NCBI RefSeq assembly: GCF_013282625.1
Contig: NZ_CP054020.1
Location: forward strand, 2,170,001-2,234,000
Length of the DNA stretch: 64,000 nt
Direction of reading: 5' to 3'
Source: Thiomicrorhabdus xiamenensis
GTDB lineage: Bacteria > Pseudomonadota > Gammaproteobacteria > Thiomicrospirales > Thiomicrospiraceae
In this document: piece by piece, positions 21,373 to 30,689 of the stretch
Numbering within the stretch: the stretch's first letter is position 1
Layout of the letters: every line of letters begins with the position of its first letter
Notes under the pieces: generated by a model
The model's input: only the letters and a program-made list of their open reading frames with translations
What the model was told of the DNA's origin: nothing
Database searches by the model: none
Translations under genes and position numbers: made by a program

Positions 21373-21942
21373 CTAACGCAGCTGATAACGCGGTTCACTC
21401 ATTAAAGGCGCAACCAGCTCGACATCGCGATCCTTATCCAGCATCTCGATCATATCGTCGTAGGACTGAATCGGTTTGACATCGATAATCACCGTATCCG
21501 GCTTCGGCAAGCGGGTCACCAGACGAAAACCGTAGCGTTCAATCACCTCATCAAGGTGCTTCGCCCGATAGGTTTTTAAAAGAAAAGTTCCGGTCAGAAC
21601 CGCATTACGCCCGGTCTTTTTATTCAAAAGCACCGGCATAAACTGCAAGTTTTTGCCCTGTACCGTTCGTAGCTGAGGCCCGCAGGTTCGGCGTTCAAAC
21701 CACGGCTCCGGTGTCTGATAGATATACCAGCCGCCATGACGCTCGAGCAACTCCAAGCCCATCGCTGCCGGCAAATCCTCCGGCGCCGTCATGGAAGCAA
21801 CCCGCTGCAACTTTGCTTCATACACCTCGGATCCAGCCATCTGCGTTACCAGCTGACAAGGCAATAGATACGCCTGTACCTGAAAAGAGAGGAATAAGCC
21901 GGCGATTGCCAGTAATTTCAAAAAGGTTCTTTTAAACAGCAT
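21373..21942 (-). CDS. Exported small protein, probable trans-encoded prodomain/chaperone of the S8 peptidase
   Basis: No named family recognised. The 189-residue protein has a signal peptide (cleavage probably after QVQA, residue 24). Its last 60 residues read as a beta-alpha-beta-beta-alpha-beta unit: LVTRLPKPDTVIIDVKP, SYDDMIEMLDKDRDVELVAP, LMSEPRYQLR. That is the pattern of subtilase prodomains, which end with a strand like xVxxVxPxxxxx. Two cysteines (LPCQLV and RTCGPQ) may pair. The gene starts 2 bp after the S8 peptidase stop, and that peptidase has no prodomain of its own. The role as trans prodomain or inhibitor is inference. Confidence 0.6.
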   Translation of the reverse strand: MLFKRTFLKLLAIAGLFLSFQVQAYLLPCQLVTQMAGSEVYEAKLQRVASMTAPEDLPAAMGLELLERHGGWYIYQTPEPWFERRTCGPQLRTVQGKNLQFMPVLLNKKTGRNAVLTGTFLLKTYRAKHLDEVIERYGFRLVTRLPKPDTVIIDVKPIQSYDDMIEMLDKDRDVELVAPLMSEPRYQLR

Positions 21943-21944
21943 AT

Positions 21945-23876
21945 TTACGACTCATGCACATAGAATTTAAGAGACCAATCGACCAGCTTTCCTTCGCCGG
22001 TCAGCTCGGCTTGTGAATCCAGATCACGGACAATTAACTTCCAGTCGCCATTCAGGTTTTCACCATAAAACGCATGACTGATCATCGGGTAATCAATAAT
22101 ATCTTGCTGCTTATCAAATCCATGGAACGGGGTCATTAAAATGCTCTGGGTACCATTCGGCGACTCGAGAAGTATTTGATAATCGCTGAAATCAAAGTTT
22201 GTTGCTTCAATTTCGGGATGCTCTGAATCATAATTTGGAAGCCCATCGGTTCCTGAAAGAGAAATAATAAGCTGAACACTCTCGACAATCGGGTTCCCCG
22301 TCTCGTTAACGCTTAGAGTTTCACTAATCCCTGATGCAGATGCATCGGGGATCTCACCGGTATTGGTAACCGGACCGGCGAAACCGTTGTCTCCCGGAAG
22401 CAGTTGCATTGCCGGAAGGAGCGAGTAACCGTTCTTCGCCATACTGATAGCGGCATCCGCATCCAGAGCGCCAAAACCGAAATAATTGGAAAAATGATAA
22501 CCTGCCGCATTATCGACCCAGCCATCTTCGAGCACAACCTGACTCAACCCAAGCGTCAAAGTTTTTTCGGCGTAGCCCGGATCGATCTTACGCGCCGTTG
22601 TTGCCAGAATATGCTTGATATCACGCCAGGTCAAAGCCGGATTCGCTTCCAGTAACAAGGCCGCGGCGCCACTGATGATCGGCGTCGCTGCGGAAGTTCC
22701 GTTAAAAATACTGATGTAATTACACTCAAGGTTCTCTTGCGTATTTCCATTATCGAAATCCGAAGAACTGTAGGTAGAATCGGTTTGACTATAACCCGCG
22801 TCACAGCCGCTTTGATCCGTTGTCAGCATGGCGGGGCTGAGCTGCCCGTATTCACCACCCGGAGCTGCAATCCAAATCGACGATCCTGTACTGGCATAGC
22901 TGGCTCTCTCGCCCTCTGCGTTAAATGCCCCGACCGGGATCACAAACGGATAAGCCTGATCACGTTCAAGATTCGTATTGAAACAGGTCACACCGTTTTC
23001 GATTGCCTGGGTACATTTCTCTACCGGCAGCGGGTTATCCGCAGGATTGACGTACTCACTGTCTTCGTGACCGGAAAACTCATTCCCGGCCGCTTTGAAA
23101 TACAAAGCACCTTTGCCTTCTCGCAGATTTTCCGTTCCCCACTGTTGCGCATACACTAAAACAACGTAATACAGCTCTTCCCCGCTCGGCAGATCATAAG
23201 TTATGGTTCGTCCGTAACTCAAATTGAAAATATCGACCTGAGGAGAAGTTAATTCCGGGTAATTGCCGTTATTGACAGTATCCTGATAGCCCAGCGCAGC
23301 CAATTCGTTCGGATAGTCCTGGGCCAAAAGCATATTGTACCCGCGCAGTTCTGCGCTCGGCGCCACGCCCGTTATACCGAGTGCATTCCCCCCGCGGGCA
23401 GCGAGATAACCGGCGACACTGGTGCCATGCCCACCGCTGGAATAGGTCGCGGTCGGGTTATGTAATCCCTGTCCATTGGAAGGAACCGTGTCTTCGGCGA
23501 CATAAGTGAAGTTATAAGACGCATCGGGAACAACATTCTGCTGCAGGTCTTCATGGGCAATTTCCAGATCGGAATCAACGACCGCGATTTTGATGCAATC
23601 ACCGCTGTACCCCTGAGCCATCTGACCGGCGGCGAAAATATTAATATCTTCACCGGCGACACCACCGCTTCCGTCAGCGGTCAAAGCTGTTTGGCCAGTA
23701 TTTTCCAGATACCACTGATACCCGAACAGAGAATCATCAATCGAAGTTATCGGGGAATCTTCGCCGCAGGTTTCGTACTCAACCGCGGGTGTATCCGATG
23801 AACCGCCTCCACCGCCGCAGGCGGTTAAAACACTCGAACATCCCAACAGCAGCAACAAATTAAATCCGGACTTCAT
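21945..23876 (-). CDS. Subtilisin-family (S8, kexin-like) lipoprotein peptidase with C-terminal P-domain
   Basis: A 643-residue secreted serine peptidase. The signal peptide ends in the lipobox LTAC (Cys20), followed by a Gly/Ser linker. The mature part enters almost at once into the kexin-type catalytic domain: DSLFGYQWYLENTGQ is the usual mature N-terminus, so no cis prodomain is present. Catalytic residues: Asp in IAVVDSDLEI, His in SGGHGTSVAGY, Ser in FNGTSAATPI. A proprotein-convertase P-domain forms the last 130 residues (SLSGTDG, ILLESPNGT, ENLNGDWKLIVRD). It starts 23 bp after gspN in the T2SS operon, suggesting it is a secretion substrate or surface-anchored by the system. Confidence 0.9.
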   Translation of the reverse strand: MKSGFNLLLLLGCSSVLTACGGGGGSSDTPAVEYETCGEDSPITSIDDSLFGYQWYLENTGQTALTADGSGGVAGEDINIFAAGQMAQGYSGDCIKIAVVDSDLEIAHEDLQQNVVPDASYNFTYVAEDTVPSNGQGLHNPTATYSSGGHGTSVAGYLAARGGNALGITGVAPSAELRGYNMLLAQDYPNELAALGYQDTVNNGNYPELTSPQVDIFNLSYGRTITYDLPSGEELYYVVLVYAQQWGTENLREGKGALYFKAAGNEFSGHEDSEYVNPADNPLPVEKCTQAIENGVTCFNTNLERDQAYPFVIPVGAFNAEGERASYASTGSSIWIAAPGGEYGQLSPAMLTTDQSGCDAGYSQTDSTYSSSDFDNGNTQENLECNYISIFNGTSAATPIISGAAALLLEANPALTWRDIKHILATTARKIDPGYAEKTLTLGLSQVVLEDGWVDNAAGYHFSNYFGFGALDADAAISMAKNGYSLLPAMQLLPGDNGFAGPVTNTGEIPDASASGISETLSVNETGNPIVESVQLIISLSGTDGLPNYDSEHPEIEATNFDFSDYQILLESPNGTQSILMTPFHGFDKQQDIIDYPMISHAFYGENLNGDWKLIVRDLDSQAELTGEGKLVDWSLKFYVHES

Positions 23877-23899: not shown

Positions 23900-24727
23900 T
23901 TAATTGAGCGCCCAATTCCCCTGAAAACGGCTCTGTGCCGAAGAGTCCGAAGAGTCCGAAGAAGACTTCATCAGACTGGCCCAATTAGGCAAACTCTCAG
24001 CAGAGGGCGCCGAAACCTTGACTAACCCCTGATATTGAATCGATTGCAATCCCTTTTCCCGTTTAAGCGGCGTCAAAACAATTTCACCGCTCATCGTCCA
24101 TTTTTGTTCGGCAGAGAGTTTAATAATGACCTGCTCATCCTGCTGACTGACGGTAATAAACACCGGCGGCAAGGATTCCCCCAGAAAGCTGAATCCGTTG
24201 AGACGCATGGCGCCCTGTGTTTTTTGCAACCATTGTCCGGCATCGACCCACCGGGTTTGCAGAGAAATCCCCTCGAGTCGTCCGCTTAAACCGTTCAACC
24301 AGCGTCCGATATCCCGATTCAATGCCAGCAGCGGCATAATATCTTCAAACTGGAGCGTACCTTCACTGAGACTTAGCGCAAGGTCGCCCGACAAAAGAGA
24401 CCACTCTGCGGAGAACGGCAATTCACTGCTTCGTCCGCGGAACTGCCCGTTCAGCTGCGGATGCAACAGCAACCAGTCGAGATAAGACTGCTGCCAGCGC
24501 AGAATACCCAAAGGCTGATAATCCGGATTCGCAAGCCCGATAGCCAGAGAACCCTGCGCCAAATCTCCTTTAAGTTCACTTAACTGAACAGGCTTGTTTT
24601 CCATGCCTATAAATGAATTCAAGGCACTGATTTTAAAAGAACTTATCAGTGAGATACAAAACAGCACTATTGCCAAAAATAATAGCAGAATTACCTGTTT
24701 CTTTCTAAAGAAATACATATAAATCAA
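23900..24727 (-). CDS. gspN: Type II secretion system protein N
   Basis: Bitopic inner-membrane T2SS component of uncertain role. The 275-residue protein has an N-terminal membrane anchor (VILLLFLAIVLFCISLI) and a periplasmic domain with family-like elements (LKGDLAQGSLAI, LNGLSGRLEGISLQTRW, AMRLNGFSF). The C-terminus is low-complexity Ser/Asp-rich (SSSDSSDSSAQSRFQG), an odd tail. It is identified by its place after gspM and its general pattern; sequence conservation of GspN is weak. Confidence 0.8.
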   Translation of the reverse strand: MIYMYFFRKKQVILLLFLAIVLFCISLISSFKISALNSFIGMENKPVQLSELKGDLAQGSLAIGLANPDYQPLGILRWQQSYLDWLLLHPQLNGQFRGRSSELPFSAEWSLLSGDLALSLSEGTLQFEDIMPLLALNRDIGRWLNGLSGRLEGISLQTRWVDAGQWLQKTQGAMRLNGFSFLGESLPPVFITVSQQDEQVIIKLSAEQKWTMSGEIVLTPLKREKGLQSIQYQGLVKVSAPSAESLPNWASLMKSSSDSSDSSAQSRFQGNWALN

Positions 24728-24776: not shown

Positions 24777-25298
24777 CTACTCCGGTACAACAAATTCAAT
24801 CTGAGCCTCGACCACACCGCCTTCAAGAGGAACTATCTGCGCCCTTTGACTGACAACACCTTCCTGCTCCAGGGTCGCCAACCATTGCAAAAGCCTCGGG
24901 GCATCCGCCTGTTTGAATACCACTTTCACCCCCTTGGATGTCAGATCGACTTTGCTGATCTGTTTATGCAGATTAAGTTGGCGTAAAGACTGTTGAACCT
25001 TGCTCATCAACTGATTGCGGTTTGAAATCGCCGCCTGATTCTGCTCCGGTCCCTGACGCTGCCAAAGAGGTATCTGTTGATTAAGCCACTGCCATTGGTT
25101 CTGTGCATTCAACAACTGCTGATGCGCTTCCTTCTGCTGTTGCTGAATCGGCTGCCACAACAACGCGTACAGCAACACCCAGAAGAGGAAAATACCCAGC
25201 ATCGCCAGCAACACTTTTTCCCGGTCGGCCAGCGGTTGCCAGAAAGCATTAAAGCGCAGCTTGATCGGCTGCAGAAGATTTTCAATTTGCGACCACAT
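24777..25298 (-). CDS. gspM: Type II secretion system protein M
   Basis: Inner-membrane platform protein that partners GspL. The 173-residue protein has a short cytoplasmic N-terminus (PLADREKVLLAML), a membrane segment (LGIFLFWVLLYALLWQPI), a coiled-coil stretch rich in Gln, and a ferredoxin-like periplasmic domain (VDLTSKGVKVVFKQADAPRL). The start overlaps the gspL end by 17 bp. Size and layout are normal. Confidence 0.92.
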   Translation of the reverse strand: MWSQIENLLQPIKLRFNAFWQPLADREKVLLAMLGIFLFWVLLYALLWQPIQQQQKEAHQQLLNAQNQWQWLNQQIPLWQRQGPEQNQAAISNRNQLMSKVQQSLRQLNLHKQISKVDLTSKGVKVVFKQADAPRLLQWLATLEQEGVVSQRAQIVPLEGGVVEAQIEFVVPE

Positions 25299-26481
25299 TT
25301 AACTCTCCCAGAGCCACTTCAGGCGTGACATTCTTAATGCTCAACTGCGCCTGCAGTTTACCTGCCCGCTGTTGAATCTGCTGCTGCAGCTTTTGCAAAT
25401 CACCGCTCTGTTTCGCCGTCAGACGCAGATTCAATTTGCCGCCCTGAGCCTGGCGCTGCCAATTCAATTCATCGATACGAACTTTTGTCTGCCCGGATAA
25501 CACCGGTTCGAGCTGGTAAACGAGCGGCATTAAACGCGCACTCGTTACATCTTGCGACGGCGCTCTCAGGCGGGTCATGGTCTGCGTCTTGATACTGACC
25601 ACTCTCTTTACATCAGGAAACATCGCTTTAAAGAGCTGCTCGCTCTGAGAACGGTAAACCTGCGCATCCTGCAGCGCCTGCTCCTTTTCTAGCCAGTTTG
25701 ATCCCAGCAATACCACGAACAGAAGCCCCGCGGCCAGATTCGGCCATAACCATTGACGCCAGAGATTTTGCGACTCCTTCAACGCGAACTCGCCGACCGC
25801 CAGATTGGTGCTCTGTAACTGCTGCCAGGCACTCGGCGAAAAGGCGATTTTCTGCCATTGCGCCTGCTGAGGCGTCAAATTGCGCACCTCCTCGGAAGAA
25901 GATGCCAACTGCTCGCTAAGCGTTTCGGGAATGGCAAAACCGCTATAACGCCCATCACGATAGATCACCACCGGCGCTCCGGGAAGCACCATCGCGACAG
26001 ATACGTCAGTTTCCGGTTCAGGCAGAGCGAAACAATCGGCGCTCAACAGACAGTTATCCAGTTCGAGACGCTTAAGGGCTTGATACCATTGATTCATTAA
26101 AACCTTGGCGATCACGGCAACCTGTAACTGTGTTCCCTCTTGCGCCGGCTGTTTGTGCAAAATAACAAAATGGTAATTCTCGACCGCGTCGGACAGTTGC
26201 TCTTCCAGTGCATACGGCAGGGCTGCGCGCAACTCTGACTGACGGCTTCCCGGCAAAACAACCTGCGCTATAACCAACTGGGAAGTCGGAACCCAGACAA
26301 CACCGATCTGTCGGAGCTGTTCCGAAGTGATACGCCCCTGCTGTAGAAGCGATTCAACGCTTTCCTCTTTGACATCCGCTGCCCCGTCGGCGAATTGCCG
26401 CAACAGCAACTCCCCCTGCAGATTGAAGCACAGAGCCTTAGCGTCGGCTTGTAAAGTTACATTCGAGTTATTCGGGGACAC
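25282..26481 (-). CDS. gspL: Type II secretion system protein L
   Basis: Links the ATPase GspE to the membrane platform. The 399-residue protein has an actin-like cytoplasmic domain (about 1-240; VWVPTSQLVIAQVVLPG, LRAALPYALEEQL), one membrane segment (LWPNLAAGLLFVVLLGSNWL) and a periplasmic domain with RLTAKQSGDLQKLQQQI, as in GspL. It overlaps gspK by 14 bp and gspM by 17 bp, consistent with translational coupling. Confidence 0.94.
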   Translation of the reverse strand: MSPNNSNVTLQADAKALCFNLQGELLLRQFADGAADVKEESVESLLQQGRITSEQLRQIGVVWVPTSQLVIAQVVLPGSRQSELRAALPYALEEQLSDAVENYHFVILHKQPAQEGTQLQVAVIAKVLMNQWYQALKRLELDNCLLSADCFALPEPETDVSVAMVLPGAPVVIYRDGRYSGFAIPETLSEQLASSSEEVRNLTPQQAQWQKIAFSPSAWQQLQSTNLAVGEFALKESQNLWRQWLWPNLAAGLLFVVLLGSNWLEKEQALQDAQVYRSQSEQLFKAMFPDVKRVVSIKTQTMTRLRAPSQDVTSARLMPLVYQLEPVLSGQTKVRIDELNWQRQAQGGKLNLRLTAKQSGDLQKLQQQIQQRAGKLQAQLSIKNVTPEVALGELNVVAN

Positions 26482-27439
26482 TTAACCACCTTTGCAGTAT
26501 CTTCACCTGATTTTGCTCATTACGATAGAACAGCCCTGAAACCTGCTGCCGCGCCAGACCAAAATCAATTCGTCCGTTTAAAATAAAAAAATCACTTCTG
26601 ACCGAAATCAGGCCTTCCGGCAAATCCTTAGCCACCTCTTCCAGAGTCAGCCCCGTAACGCCGATCAGAAAACGATGGAAATCATCCACCTTCTCGGCCG
26701 GATTGCCGATCCTCTGGTTTAACCAGGCCTGCACAACCTGCACCGTCATCCAGGGACTCAAACTGAGCAACACCGCTTCGGAAGCGGTATTAATATTGAC
26801 CGCAGTCTCCTGCGGCAAGGCGCTTAAGTTCGCCACAAGCAGCGTTTTCTGCTGAAAAGTTAACGTCTGCACTCCTTGCAGATTGAACACTTCCTGCGGC
26901 GTAACCATCGGCTGATTGGCGGCACTGAAAGCCGGAGTATTCAATAGATATTGATCGCTTTCCGCGCCACCCGCCAACGGCTCTGAATCACGGTCAATCC
27001 AGTCCTCGATCAGATCCGCCAGATTCAAATTCAGGTTCTGCTGCTGGGCATAACGGTTAAAAACCGCATGCCACAACTCTTTACGCTTAGCGTCAACACT
27101 CAACAGAGCGTTTACATTCAGTTTTGCCTGAGCATCCAGCAACTCGCCGGAAATTTCGCCGTCCTCAAACGGAATCGGCGGCAAAGGCTGCGCCCAGAGT
27201 TCGCCCAGATGATCGGTTTTATTGTTTTTCCCATCCAGAGCCAATCCCTGTTTCACCCAGGACTCCAGCCCCCAGGCAACACTCAAAGCCTGTGTCTGAT
27301 GCAGCATATAACCGCTGCGCTGAATCTGTGCCTGTTGCTTGCTTAAAAGCTCCGAACTGATAATCGCCACCAGAGCAGCCACCAGAATTACAGTAATCAA
27401 GGCGAAACCGGACTGAGTTTGTCGCTGCCGACTACTCAT
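26468..27439 (-). CDS. gspK: Type II secretion minor pseudopilin K
   Basis: Large minor pseudopilin at the pseudopilus tip. The start was taken at the ATG at 27439 (MSSRQRQTQSGFALITVILV), overlapping the gspJ stop as ATGAGTAG; this gives 323 residues. An upstream in-frame start at 27463 is possible. The prepilin motif SGFALI lacks the Glu5 of most pilins, as is normal for GspK. The large periplasmic part with LNVNALLSVD, VQTLTFQQKTLL and VNINTASEAVLLSL matches the family's alpha domain. Confidence 0.93.
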   Translation of the reverse strand: MSSRQRQTQSGFALITVILVAALVAIISSELLSKQQAQIQRSGYMLHQTQALSVAWGLESWVKQGLALDGKNNKTDHLGELWAQPLPPIPFEDGEISGELLDAQAKLNVNALLSVDAKRKELWHAVFNRYAQQQNLNLNLADLIEDWIDRDSEPLAGGAESDQYLLNTPAFSAANQPMVTPQEVFNLQGVQTLTFQQKTLLVANLSALPQETAVNINTASEAVLLSLSPWMTVQVVQAWLNQRIGNPAEKVDDFHRFLIGVTGLTLEEVAKDLPEGLISVRSDFFILNGRIDFGLARQQVSGLFYRNEQNQVKILQRWLSVPE

Positions 27440-28103
27440 TGACTCCCTCCTGTCCGGAGACACTGTCCAATGCGGCTGCCGGATAAGGGTTAAACTCCAT
27501 CCAATCCGTGCCTAAAAAAAGCCGCTTCACTTCACCAAGCCGATTAAGCATGCGCACCTCGACGGCCTTCGGCAGGAGATTATTTAACGGCGGTGTTTCA
27601 CGGTTTTCCGGCGGCCAGTTTTCCCGCCATTGACTCTGCTCATCGAGAAAACGCAAATCAAACCTTTGCACATCCTCAAGCAGAACCCTTCTAACCGGAA
27701 CCGAATCCGGCGCCCGATCCATCACCGGCCACAGCAGACGCACCAGCTGCTTGTTTTCCAGACGATAGGCCACACGATTCAGCCCATAAGAACCCGCCAT
27801 CGCCATAGGACTTTGCGCATCACTTAAACGACTGAACTCCAAACCCAAATCAACGCGATAGGTCATAGCAGGAAGTGAACCGCCTAAACCGTCGTTGACC
27901 GCTCTTGGAGCCATCTGAATCAGATCCTGTTCCAGCCACCACCAGGCACCTTGCAGGCGCTTCAGTTCCTGCTGATGCGTCTCCAGAGACTGATTGACCC
28001 GTACTCCCGAATCGATCGTCTGGTAAGCCAGCATACTGATAATCGCGGCGATAGACATGGCGATCAACAACTCGATCAGGGTAAAACCTTTCTGCGATTT
28101 CAT
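27432..28103 (-). CDS. gspJ: Type II secretion minor pseudopilin J
   Basis: Minor pseudopilin of the I-J-K tip complex. The 223-residue protein has the type IV prepilin signal [17 protein letters not shown]. Family features include the WWWLEQDLIQMAPRAV segment and RLLWPVMDRAPDSVPVRR. The start overlaps gspI by 4 bp. Length is standard. Confidence 0.94.
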   Translation of the reverse strand: MKSQKGFTLIELLIAMSIAAIISMLAYQTIDSGVRVNQSLETHQQELKRLQGAWWWLEQDLIQMAPRAVNDGLGGSLPAMTYRVDLGLEFSRLSDAQSPMAMAGSYGLNRVAYRLENKQLVRLLWPVMDRAPDSVPVRRVLLEDVQRFDLRFLDEQSQWRENWPPENRETPPLNNLLPKAVEVRMLNRLGEVKRLFLGTDWMEFNPYPAAALDSVSGQEGVNE

Positions 28104-28483
28104 GGTACGCCCACCACAGTGACCAGACGAGTACTGACAGATGCGTCATCGCCTGTAGACGCTGTATCCGGCTTGACCTCTATCGTCAATTTTTTGAATT
28201 GCGCCAACTGTGTCGCTTCGATCTTCTGGGTAAGAAGCCAGTTTCGTCCCAGCATCTTCTCTTCACGGGAAAACTGGTTGCTGCCGGTTTGGATCTGTTG
28301 CTGCGTTAACGCATTTTGCGCGACCCAGGTGGCGACCACTTTTTCTTCAAGCAAAGCCTGATTGTGAGTTGTGACACCGAAACTTCGACTCATGGCCGCC
28401 AATGCAATCGCTGCGATAACCAAAGCGATCAGCACTTCAATCAGCGTAAATCCGCACTGGCGCTGTACCGTCTTTTCTGCCAT
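28100..28483 (-). CDS. gspI: Type II secretion minor pseudopilin I
   Basis: Minor pseudopilin that nucleates the tip. The start was set at the ATG at 28483 (MAEKTVQRQCGFTLIEVLIA), preceded by GAGGCAGGT; the frame is open further upstream into gspH but that would give an implausible leader. The resulting 127 residues match GspI size. The prepilin cleavage site precedes FTLIEVLIALVIAAIALAA, and NQALLEEKVVATWVAQN is typical of the family. Confidence 0.92.
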   Translation of the reverse strand: MAEKTVQRQCGFTLIEVLIALVIAAIALAAMSRSFGVTTHNQALLEEKVVATWVAQNALTQQQIQTGSNQFSREEKMLGRNWLLTQKIEATQLAQFKKLTIEVKPDTASTGDDASVSTRLVTVVGVP

Positions 28484-28493
28484 ACCTGCCTCG

Positions 28494-28994
28494 TTAAACA
28501 GCATCACTCGCAACCAATTCAAATTCCAGCCACTGGTCCCACTGCAGGATCGTGTCTTCAGCCTCGGCATTTTTCACTCGCCAGCTGATTGATCCCGGCT
28601 GAACCTCTCCGCTCGGCAAAACCCACCAGCCTCTGTTAATCAGGCTTTCCTCACGGCTCTGCAACATAGGCAGTTGCCACTCGACGTCAAAAGACGCTTT
28701 CCACGACAAGGCTTTGGCCTCGTCATCTTTATGCCACTGCCCTTGCTGCCACTTGAAAAGCGTCAACCCCTTATTATCCGGAATGAGCAGATACGTCCTC
28801 TGCTGCCATGTAGCCTGATCCTGAGCATAATGAAACAGCGCCTGAATCTGACTCGCCTGCTGGCGGGACAGGGCGCTGTCGCTGTTTTTGAAACTCAGAC
28901 TGGCGGCCGTCAACAGAAGGCCGATAATCAAGAGTACGACCATCAGCTCGATCAGAGTAAAACCGTTTTGCCGAAGACGCACCCGAGGCTCCAA
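28494..28994 (-). CDS. gspH: Type II secretion minor pseudopilin H
   Basis: Minor pseudopilin. The 166-residue protein begins [20 protein letters not shown], a short type IV prepilin leader and N-methylated Phe site followed by a hydrophobic helix. The SRQQASQIQALFHYAQDQA segment and the beta-rich C-terminal half agree with GspH. It is 5 bp after gspG and 10 bp before gspI. Confidence 0.92.
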   Translation of the reverse strand: MEPRVRLRQNGFTLIELMVVLLIIGLLLTAASLSFKNSDSALSRQQASQIQALFHYAQDQATWQQRTYLLIPDNKGLTLFKWQQGQWHKDDEAKALSWKASFDVEWQLPMLQSREESLINRGWWVLPSGEVQPGSISWRVKNAEAEDTILQWDQWLEFELVASDAV

Positions 28995-28999
28995 ATCGT

Positions 29000-29446
29000 C
29001 TATTTCTGTTGCCAGTTACCGATGGTGGCATTTATGTCTTCACCGCCTTCTGCACCATCCGCACCATAGGTGAACAGATCGAACTCCCCATGCTCGCCGG
29101 GAGAAAGATACAGGTAAGGATTACCCCACGGATCCAGAGGCAGGGTATCCAGCAGCTTTTTCCAATTCTTCGGCTGCGGATCATCGCTTGGCTGCTTAAC
29201 CAGTGCCTCCAACCCCTGGTCGGTTGTCGGATACTGATAATTGTCCAGCTTATAAAGCTGCAGAGCCGAAGCGATCGCGGCGATGTCCTGCTTCGCCTTC
29301 ACTATTCTCGCTTCATCCGGGCGATCCATCAGTTTCGGTACTACAAATCCGGCCAGAATCGCCAGGATGACGACCACCACCATCAATTCAATCAAGGTAA
29401 AACCTTTCTGACGTGACTGTTTCCACTGCTGTCTGTCTAATCTCAT
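29000..29446 (-). CDS. gspG: Type II secretion major pseudopilin G
   Basis: Major subunit of the pseudopilus. The 148-residue protein carries a prepilin leader ending [17 protein letters not shown], then [52 protein letters not shown] and [16 protein letters not shown]-like calcium-binding C-terminal residues ([11 protein letters not shown]). Size and motifs are those of GspG. Confidence 0.97.
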
Positions 29447-29468
29447 TTTCTTTATCCTAAATTTACAG

Positions 29469-30689
29469 TTAACCTATCATCTGATTCATTTCGAAAATCG
29501 GCAGCATAATCGCCAATACGATGACCAGCACGACCGCACCCATCACCATAATCAAAATCGGTTCGATCAGGCTGACCAGAGTCGAAGCGGCGTTTTCCAC
29601 CTCGTTCTCGTAATGCTGCGCACCGCGCAACAGCATCGAATGCAGCTGCCCTTTACCTTCCCCTGTTCCGACCAGGTTCAGCAACAACGGCGGGAACACT
29701 TTCGATTGCTGCATTGAATAATGCACGCTTTTCCCCTGACGGACCAGTTCGACCATATTCATCACCGACGCTTTCAGCGGCTCTAAAGTCATCACTTCAG
29801 CGGAAATCGCCATGGCGTCGCGCACCGGAACACCGGAGGCCAGAAGCACCCCAAAAGTCCGCGCCCAGCGCGCAGCGGCCGAATATAATAAAAATTTTCT
29901 CGCCCCCGGCAGGCGCAGCCAAATCTGATGGATCCGGTAACGGCTTTTTTCCCGCGAAAGAAGCCAGCGGTACAGTAACCATACGGAAATCAGCGCCAAC
30001 CCGATCCAGCCCCAATTGGCCTGAACAAAATCGCTGGTTGTCAGCAAACCTTGAGTCAACGGCGGCAGCGTCTGTTGCATATTATCGAATACCGTCACGA
30101 CTTTAGGCACAACATAAACCATCAGAAACAGCACGATTGCGATAGACACCACAACCATCAACACCGGATAGATCAGCGCGGTTTTGAGCTTTTTGTTCAA
30201 CTGTTCACGCTGCTCGATGGTGTCCGCCAGACGCGACATCACTTCAGTCAAATGACCGCTGTGTTCGCCTGCCTGAATAATGGCGATATAGTCGGACGGC
30301 ACTTTATAGGGAGCTTTCTGCAAAGCCTGCGTCAGCGAATACCCTTCCCCGACCTTGGCGTGCAAACTACGGATAAAACGCATCATGACCTTTTTCTCAG
30401 CCTGTTCGGTCAGCGCCTTTAACGCCTGATTAAGAGGCGTCCCGGCATCAAGCAGAGTATGCAATTCACGGGTAAACAGCGCCAGATCGGCTACCGCCAA
30501 CTGACTCTGCAGAAATTTTGCCGAGCCGTCGGCCGTTTTACTCGTTTTGGCTTGAATCTCCTGCAGCGCAATTGGCGTCAATCCTTGGTCGCGAAGCTGC
30601 TGACGCGCCAAACGTTCGGAATCGCTCTCCAGCATGCCTTTCTGGGTTTTTCCGCGTCTATTAAGCGCCTTGTATTCAAATACCGCCAT
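29469..30689 (-). CDS. gspF: Type II secretion inner-membrane platform protein F
   Basis: Polytopic core of the T2SS platform. The 406-residue protein has two GspF repeats ([17 protein letters not shown]… around residue 70 and [17 protein letters not shown]… around residue 270) and three membrane segments ([53 protein letters not shown]). The [11 protein letters not shown] and [10 protein letters not shown] motifs are conserved. It lies between gspE (17 bp) and gspG (22 bp). Confidence 0.96.

Follow-up and report, generated by a model that had tools for sequence, protein, structure and literature searches.

A probable split subtilase of the ASP-ORF2 type at the end of a type II secretion operon in Thiomicrorhabdus xiamenensis

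In a 64,000-nucleotide stretch of the genome of Thiomicrorhabdus xiamenensis, a sulfur-oxidising bacterium (contig NZ_CP054020.1, positions 2,170,001 to 2,234,000; hereafter the window), two adjacent genes encode an S8 peptidase and, 2 bp downstream, a small exported protein. We consider it very probable that together they form a split subtilase, in which the prodomain is a separate gene product, of the type known from the ASP-ORF2 pair of Aeromonas sobria. This reading draws on the gene layout, the absence of a cis prodomain from the peptidase, the predicted fold of the small protein and its nearest structure, and the co-occurrence of a short C-terminal tail with the peptidase. Relative to ASP-ORF2, what is new is the breadth of the arrangement, its setting with a lipobox in a type II secretion system (T2SS) operon, and the existence of tail-less orphan copies that appear to be under selection. 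Coordinates below are those of the window, and features lie on the reverse strand unless stated.

A peptidase without a recognisable cis prodomain and a prodomain-like neighbor

The peptidase gene (21945-23876) encodes 643 residues of an ASP-like subtilase. Pfam places a Peptidase_S8 catalytic domain at residues 93-469 (22470..23600) and a P_proprotein domain at residues 563-638 (21963..22190); these alone exceed the cut-offs, and no prodomain family does. Aligned with ASP, its closest relative among solved structures, the catalytic triad comprises Asp101, His150 and Ser395. An invariant residue, Glu304, aligns with an Asp of ASP at a position that we take to lie in the S1 region. Residue Cys20 (codon 23817..23819) sits within a lipobox, VLTAC-GGGGG, followed by a short linker to QWYL. 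As DSLFGYQWYLENTGQ starts only 28 residues past Cys20, a cis prodomain has no space. All 18 aligned peptidases have Cys in the lipobox column, and none of them has a prodomain domain recognised by Pfam; the nearest related match, PF16361 Peptidase_S8_N, occurs in 2 of the 18 with a best E of 0.027, too weak to count. Open reading frame (ORF) positions, Pfam and these 18 sequences confirm an earlier sequence-only reading, in which the peptidase ran from lipobox Cys20 through a linker to the mature start without a cis prodomain. Judged by its signal peptide and lipobox cysteine, the peptidase is a putative bacterial lipoprotein. A bacterial Ig/cadherin-like domain was observed in 4 of the 18 (L050, L055, L056 and L058), placed by the alignment between lipobox and catalytic domain.

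The small-protein gene (21373..21942) encodes 189 residues, with a signal peptide recognised by eye at about residues 1-24, and is a predicted trans-prodomain, that is, an external chaperone and inhibitor of the ORF2 type. An N-terminal β-domain (about residues 25-107; 21622..21870) with invariant Cys29 and Cys87 is followed by a further part (21397..21606) delineated by Pfam and structure prediction, and by the C-terminal tail PRYQLR (residues 184-189; 21376..21393), which we propose to be an active-site plug with Arg189 as the P1 residue. The structure model is of high confidence (predicted local distance difference test score, pLDDT, 92), and its best structural match in the PDB is ORF2 from the ASP-ORF2 complex; the prodomains of PC1/3, subtilisin and fervidolysin rank below it, interspersed with unrelated folds. 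Pfam matches PF22148, the Fervidolysin N-terminal prodomain, to residues 126-179 at 21.6 bits against a cut-off of 21. Neither phmmer with the window protein nor hmmsearch with the family profile found the ORF2 chain in the PDB, so it is predicted structure, profile comparison and the Pfam matches of some other members that connect the protein to ORF2. On its own, the window protein does not match PF18492. The proposal that the prodomain has a gene of its own is thus supported by a prodomain-like predicted fold, with ORF2 as best match, and by PF22148. The small protein of genome G043 is 99% identical to it. When the complex was modelled as the natural in-frame read-through of the two adjacent genes in a relative, confidence was low and the tail, with its basic terminal Arg, was left unplaced relative to the catalytic Ser.

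ASP-ORF2 (PDB 3HJR, 3WQB) likewise consists of a kexin-like S8 peptidase with a P-domain and no cis propeptide, and of a small partner with a prodomain fold encoded just downstream. The window pair shares each of these traits: an S8 catalytic domain plus P-domain homologous to ASP, no cis propeptide, and an exported prodomain-like partner directly downstream, the last judged from layout, predicted fold and profile comparison with ORF2-like partners. Both partners also end in a basic residue, Lys in ORF2 and Arg in the window protein. The systems differ in that the window peptidase carries a lipobox and stands at the end of a T2SS operon, that some of its relatives retain the partner without the peptidase, and that other, more distant relatives have the partner gene upstream. 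ASP is not known to have a lipobox, and ORF2 is shorter than the window protein. The separate prodomain had been presented as a departure from the cis norm, but a precedent exists: the description of the A. sobria pair dates from 2000 and the structure of its complex from 2015, and a 2022 survey (PMC9549277) handles ASP as an exception among subtilases.

A C-terminal tail that accompanies the peptidase

We examined 62 genomes of the bacterial family of the host. The small protein occurs in 36, and a profile search returns the same 36. The peptidase query matches 30 of the 62 at E 0.001, 22 of them below 1e-50; the other eight (G030, G033, G038, G039, G040, G044, G045 and G046) are more distant S8 proteins, the best at 2.9e-25. 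All 22 peptidase genomes have the small protein, adjacent to the peptidase in 21 and apart from it in G061. Judged by this recurrence in relatives, the arrangement is not a product of chance.

The tail was surveyed in 39 small proteins from the 36 genomes. An E-[PKQ]-x-[YF]-x-x-R ending is found in 22 of 22 small proteins with an adjacent peptidase; this count takes in L067, where the peptidase is broken up, as well as L048 and L066, whose contigs end inside the peptidase. It is absent from 15 of the 17 without one. One tail-bearing copy among these, L047, belongs to G061, which has its peptidase elsewhere; the other, L059 (G014, genome 94% complete), has no peptidase and is a true exception. 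The tail-less 15 end in SEP, SEPR, SEPRK, EPN, EPD, PRMRRN and similar, one of them in an extension, and outside the tail they align along their full length. The C-terminal Arg has a background of 13.7% among 453 ORFs in the small-protein loci, and a tail with Arg at P1 would fit a kexin-like enzyme.

The association between tail and a peptidase in the genome gives a Fisher p of 6e-10 if rows are independent, which they are not. The tree requires five changes for the peptidase and six for the tail. Five independent pairs contrast in the peptidase over all branches and only two on well-supported branches, where on average the tail follows the peptidase in 1.7 pairs, opposes it in 0.0 and shows no difference in 0.3; the sign test on this underpowered tree comparison gives p 0.5.

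In G058 a 5.2 kb contig carries a second copy of the small protein, L067, almost identical to the first; it is either a decaying duplication or a misassembly. The G005 small protein, in L051, has an altered and extended tail, PHYRPDKRPTP.

Partners of more distant peptidases

Peptidase relatives were taken from named genomes through the peptidase alignment, blind to the partner. The scan covered 65 of 80 named loci (L084-L148) and three same-genus loci (L158-L160), 68 in all; L069-L083, from the same bacterial family as the seed, were left out of the recruitment test, and L145, titled Piscirickettsiaceae and perhaps also of the seed's family, was retained and yielded no recruit. The 39 family small proteins alone seeded a profile, which was iterated over 2808 ORFs of at least 90 residues, with recruitment at E <1e-3. 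It recruited 58 ORFs in 52 of the 68 loci, two of them fragments of one gene in L123, and each of the 58 adjoins a peptidase gene, either upstream or downstream of it and in the same orientation. Six ORFs passed in the first round, all adjacent, with the best non-adjacent ORF at E 3.7. Record titles among the loci include Xanthomonas, Stenotrophomonas, Bacteriovoracaceae, Acidobacteria and others.

Nine of the 16 loci without a recruit (L086, L092, L094, L095, L096, L098, L099, L101 and L112) have an upstream gene that scores below threshold (E 0.0035-3.4) and whose product has a basic C-terminus, in most cases ...EWR or ...EWK. A tenth, L111 (E 1.4), has an ORF_2_N protein over the Pfam cut-off (31.1 against 29.2 bits); L090, L126, L132, L140 and L145 break off where the contig or the locus stops, and L088 has just a short ORF remaining upstream. 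At 50% identity the recruits form 28 clusters. In 20 of these the majority of members have a C-terminal Lys or Arg (binomial p 1e-9 against a background of 18.3% among 569 ORFs); the exceptions are the two clusters from Xanthomonas plus six more. The peptidases scanned at 10 of the 68 loci have no known prodomain domain; PF16361 Peptidase_S8_N scored weakly in two, at 14-15 bits where the cut-off is 30.5.

Profile-profile comparison of the family with eight hand-picked partners, seven later recruited plus L111, gave a probability of 95.9. With hhalign, the family did not match significantly the partners of G039, G044 and G046 (probability 6.8), a set of those from Xanthomonas, Stenotrophomonas and similar loci (4.4) or L111 alone (0.2); partners of the first two groups joined the iterated profile in later rounds only. 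Pfam on 20 proteins, 19 of them partners outside the seed, detected a prodomain or ORF2 family at E <=0.06 in four (L085, L091, L111 and L117), over the cut-off only in L111. PF18492 had no match across 369 genomes of the class, nor in 14 controls, which makes that search uninformative. The literature searched, open-licence papers with the 2015 ASP-ORF2 paper outside that scope, reports neither upstream partners nor so wide a spread.

L158, L159 and L160 (G039, G044 and G046) hold a second split-subtilase type from the same genus, a lipoprotein-like S8 peptidase followed by an exported protein of 208-221 residues ending in QERTTR, QERVKR or QERATR (Arg-terminal in 4 of 4). G046 has two such pairs in tandem, and no T2SS gene was present in the 10-13 kb read around these pairs. 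The Xanthomonas loci L103, L105, L134 and L135 carry two partner-like genes each, perhaps tandem peptidase-partner pairs; for the majority of these partners the last residue is Leu or Met, not Lys or Arg. Membrane-protein-like ORFs at L131, L136 and L144 were rejected as false partner candidates, products of downstream-only scanning.

Orphan copies and a possible second role

The pair had been called dedicated, and this holds in part. Fourteen of the 36 genomes (G005, G006, G009, G014, G026, G027, G028, G030, G032, G033, G049, G050, G056 and G057) have the small protein without the peptidase, which weighs against the split-subtilase reading and had been named beforehand as an outcome that would refute it; copies in 13 of these 14 lack the tail proposed to enter the active site. 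No S8 peptidase match at E 0.001 was found in seven of them, G006, G009, G027 and G056 (99-100% complete) and G014, G049 and G057 (83-94%), and GspL, a T2SS protein, was not found in G006, G014, G030, G049, G056 and G057. G006 and G056, both 100% complete, have neither match. In the stretches read around the 14 orphans, a ubiB homologue lies near in 12 and a thioredoxin-like gene in 8; most orphans therefore occupy an inherited place, and no consistent neighbor beyond that neighborhood hints at their function.

Ratios of non-synonymous to synonymous substitution rates (dN/dS) were calculated by the Nei-Gojobori method on the mature small protein minus the tail; many other pairs were saturated or nearly so at synonymous sites. 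The closest orphan pair, G033/G028, gives 0.12 (dS 0.95) and the pair G006/G009 gives 0.23 (dS 1.06); the four closest peptidase-bearing pairs give 0.07-0.11 at lower dS (0.07-0.76). Identity in a seven-member orphan clade and a six-member peptidase clade is 0.604 and 0.602, respectively, for the N domain, and 0.754 and 0.761 for the C domain. These values suggest selection on the orphan small proteins, which probably have a second role; the core appears to have a use that requires neither peptidase nor T2SS. We would guess at periplasmic binding through the same surfaces.

It could then be argued that the small protein mainly serves some other purpose in the periplasm and that the peptidase merely makes use of it, the pairing being secondary. 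Its retention in the 14 genomes without the peptidase, four of them at least 99% complete and with no S8 peptidase match, the low dN/dS of the two orphan pairs and the equal conservation of both domains in the two clades all favor this. We nevertheless regard it as rather doubtful, since the partners of distant peptidases adjoin the peptidase in every recruited case and the tail is mostly gone where the peptidase is gone, so that the pairing looks older. Also against it, a profile search at E 0.001, a setting that would miss distant partners too, returned no member from the 365 genomes that belong to the class but not to the family.

With the split-subtilase reading retained, a broader one can be put forward tentatively, as a possibility. 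ASP-like S8 peptidases with a P-domain in many bacteria would make up a single class whose prodomain always comes from its own gene, upstream or downstream. The prodomain protein would be modular, with a conserved core whose job does not involve the peptidase and, at the C-terminus, a short removable tail by which the protein is committed to a protease; upon protease loss, the tail would erode while the core stays selected. The data suggest that ASP represents a large class, which would offer many natural pairs for studying a separate prodomain as chaperone and inhibitor. The orphan genomes serve as a natural experiment that appears to split the part needed by the protease, the tail, from the part kept for something else.

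Proposed mechanism and comparison systems

A cis subtilase cleaves its own prodomain, and the fresh C-terminus stays in the active site. The I9-like prodomains of subtilisin, fervidolysin and PC1/3 are made in this way, whereas the window prodomain is a separate gene product ending at the proposed P1 residue; its stop codon creates the C-terminus, so no maturation cut is required. We infer a folding role, inhibition, the S1 placement, lipidation and T2SS export from the features above. Peptidase and small protein would be exported separately, the small protein acting as likely folding helper and active-site plug. The peptidase, lipid-anchored, would probably reach the cell surface through the T2SS at the end of whose operon its gene lies, and would become active once the small protein is lost or degraded.

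SUB1-ProM, TgMIC5 and the yeast peptidase B inhibitor are also separate prodomain-like inhibitors. The small protein might, like the yeast inhibitor or malarial SUB1-ProM, be solely a regulatory inhibitor of a peptidase that folds unaided. One paper describes stand-alone propeptide mimics that inhibit independently of chaperone activity, as well as a SUB1-ProM gene that adjoins subtilase genes (PMC6993865). Yet SUB1, according to the same paper, carries its own propeptide, whereas none of the 18 peptidases here has a known prodomain domain, and the nearest structure, ORF2, is reported to be a chaperone needed by ASP. An inhibitor without a folding role is accordingly quite unlikely.

The T2SS setting

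Directly upstream of the peptidase, across a 23-bp gap, lies a gspN-like gene (23900-24727), named by position and by the sequence-only reading; Pfam gives this ORF no family. The genes gspM to gspF (24777..30689) are named by gene order and the same reading, and GspL (25282-26481; PF05134) is the sole T2SS gene in the window verified by a family model. The layout described earlier, with the 189-residue protein 2 bp downstream and the peptidase 23 bp after the gspN-like ORF, was reproduced. In 19 of the 22 peptidase genomes, counting the window, 16 further loci, G061 and, from contig positions, G011, the peptidase comes after T2SS genes at a distance that leaves room for gspN. In G022 the T2SS is located elsewhere, and G023 and G035 are not assignable, as contigs end nearby.

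All 22 genomes with the peptidase have a GspL match, against 20 of the 40 that lack the peptidase (Fisher p 2.8e-5, uncorrected for kinship). The peptidase had been proposed as a T2SS client; operon position and this co-occurrence make up the case for such export, which is probable. The lipoprotein pullulanase PulA is thought to reach the surface through a T2SS with adjoining genes, and lipidated substrates of this type resemble the window peptidase in having T2SS genes beside the lipoprotein gene. PulA is a different enzyme and is not known to have a trans prodomain.

The small-protein gene is the last of the T2SS operon in the window, which might favor an accessory T2SS part, pilotin or GspC-like, unrelated to the peptidase. 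This is extremely improbable, given a predicted fold that matches subtilase prodomains, the persistence of the small protein in the six orphan genomes without a GspL match, and its location with the peptidase, away from the T2SS, in G022.

Past the gspN position in the T2SS loci of G026 and G032 (L163 and L164), ORFs of 641 and 232 residues replace the peptidase pair, the shorter resembling a response regulator by eye. The T2SS of G005 (L166) has the same neighbor genes as that of G061, yet no peptidase past gspN. A thioredoxin-like gene (PF13098; 20699-21259, forward strand) lies convergent to the small-protein gene in the window, like the gene found near eight of the orphans.
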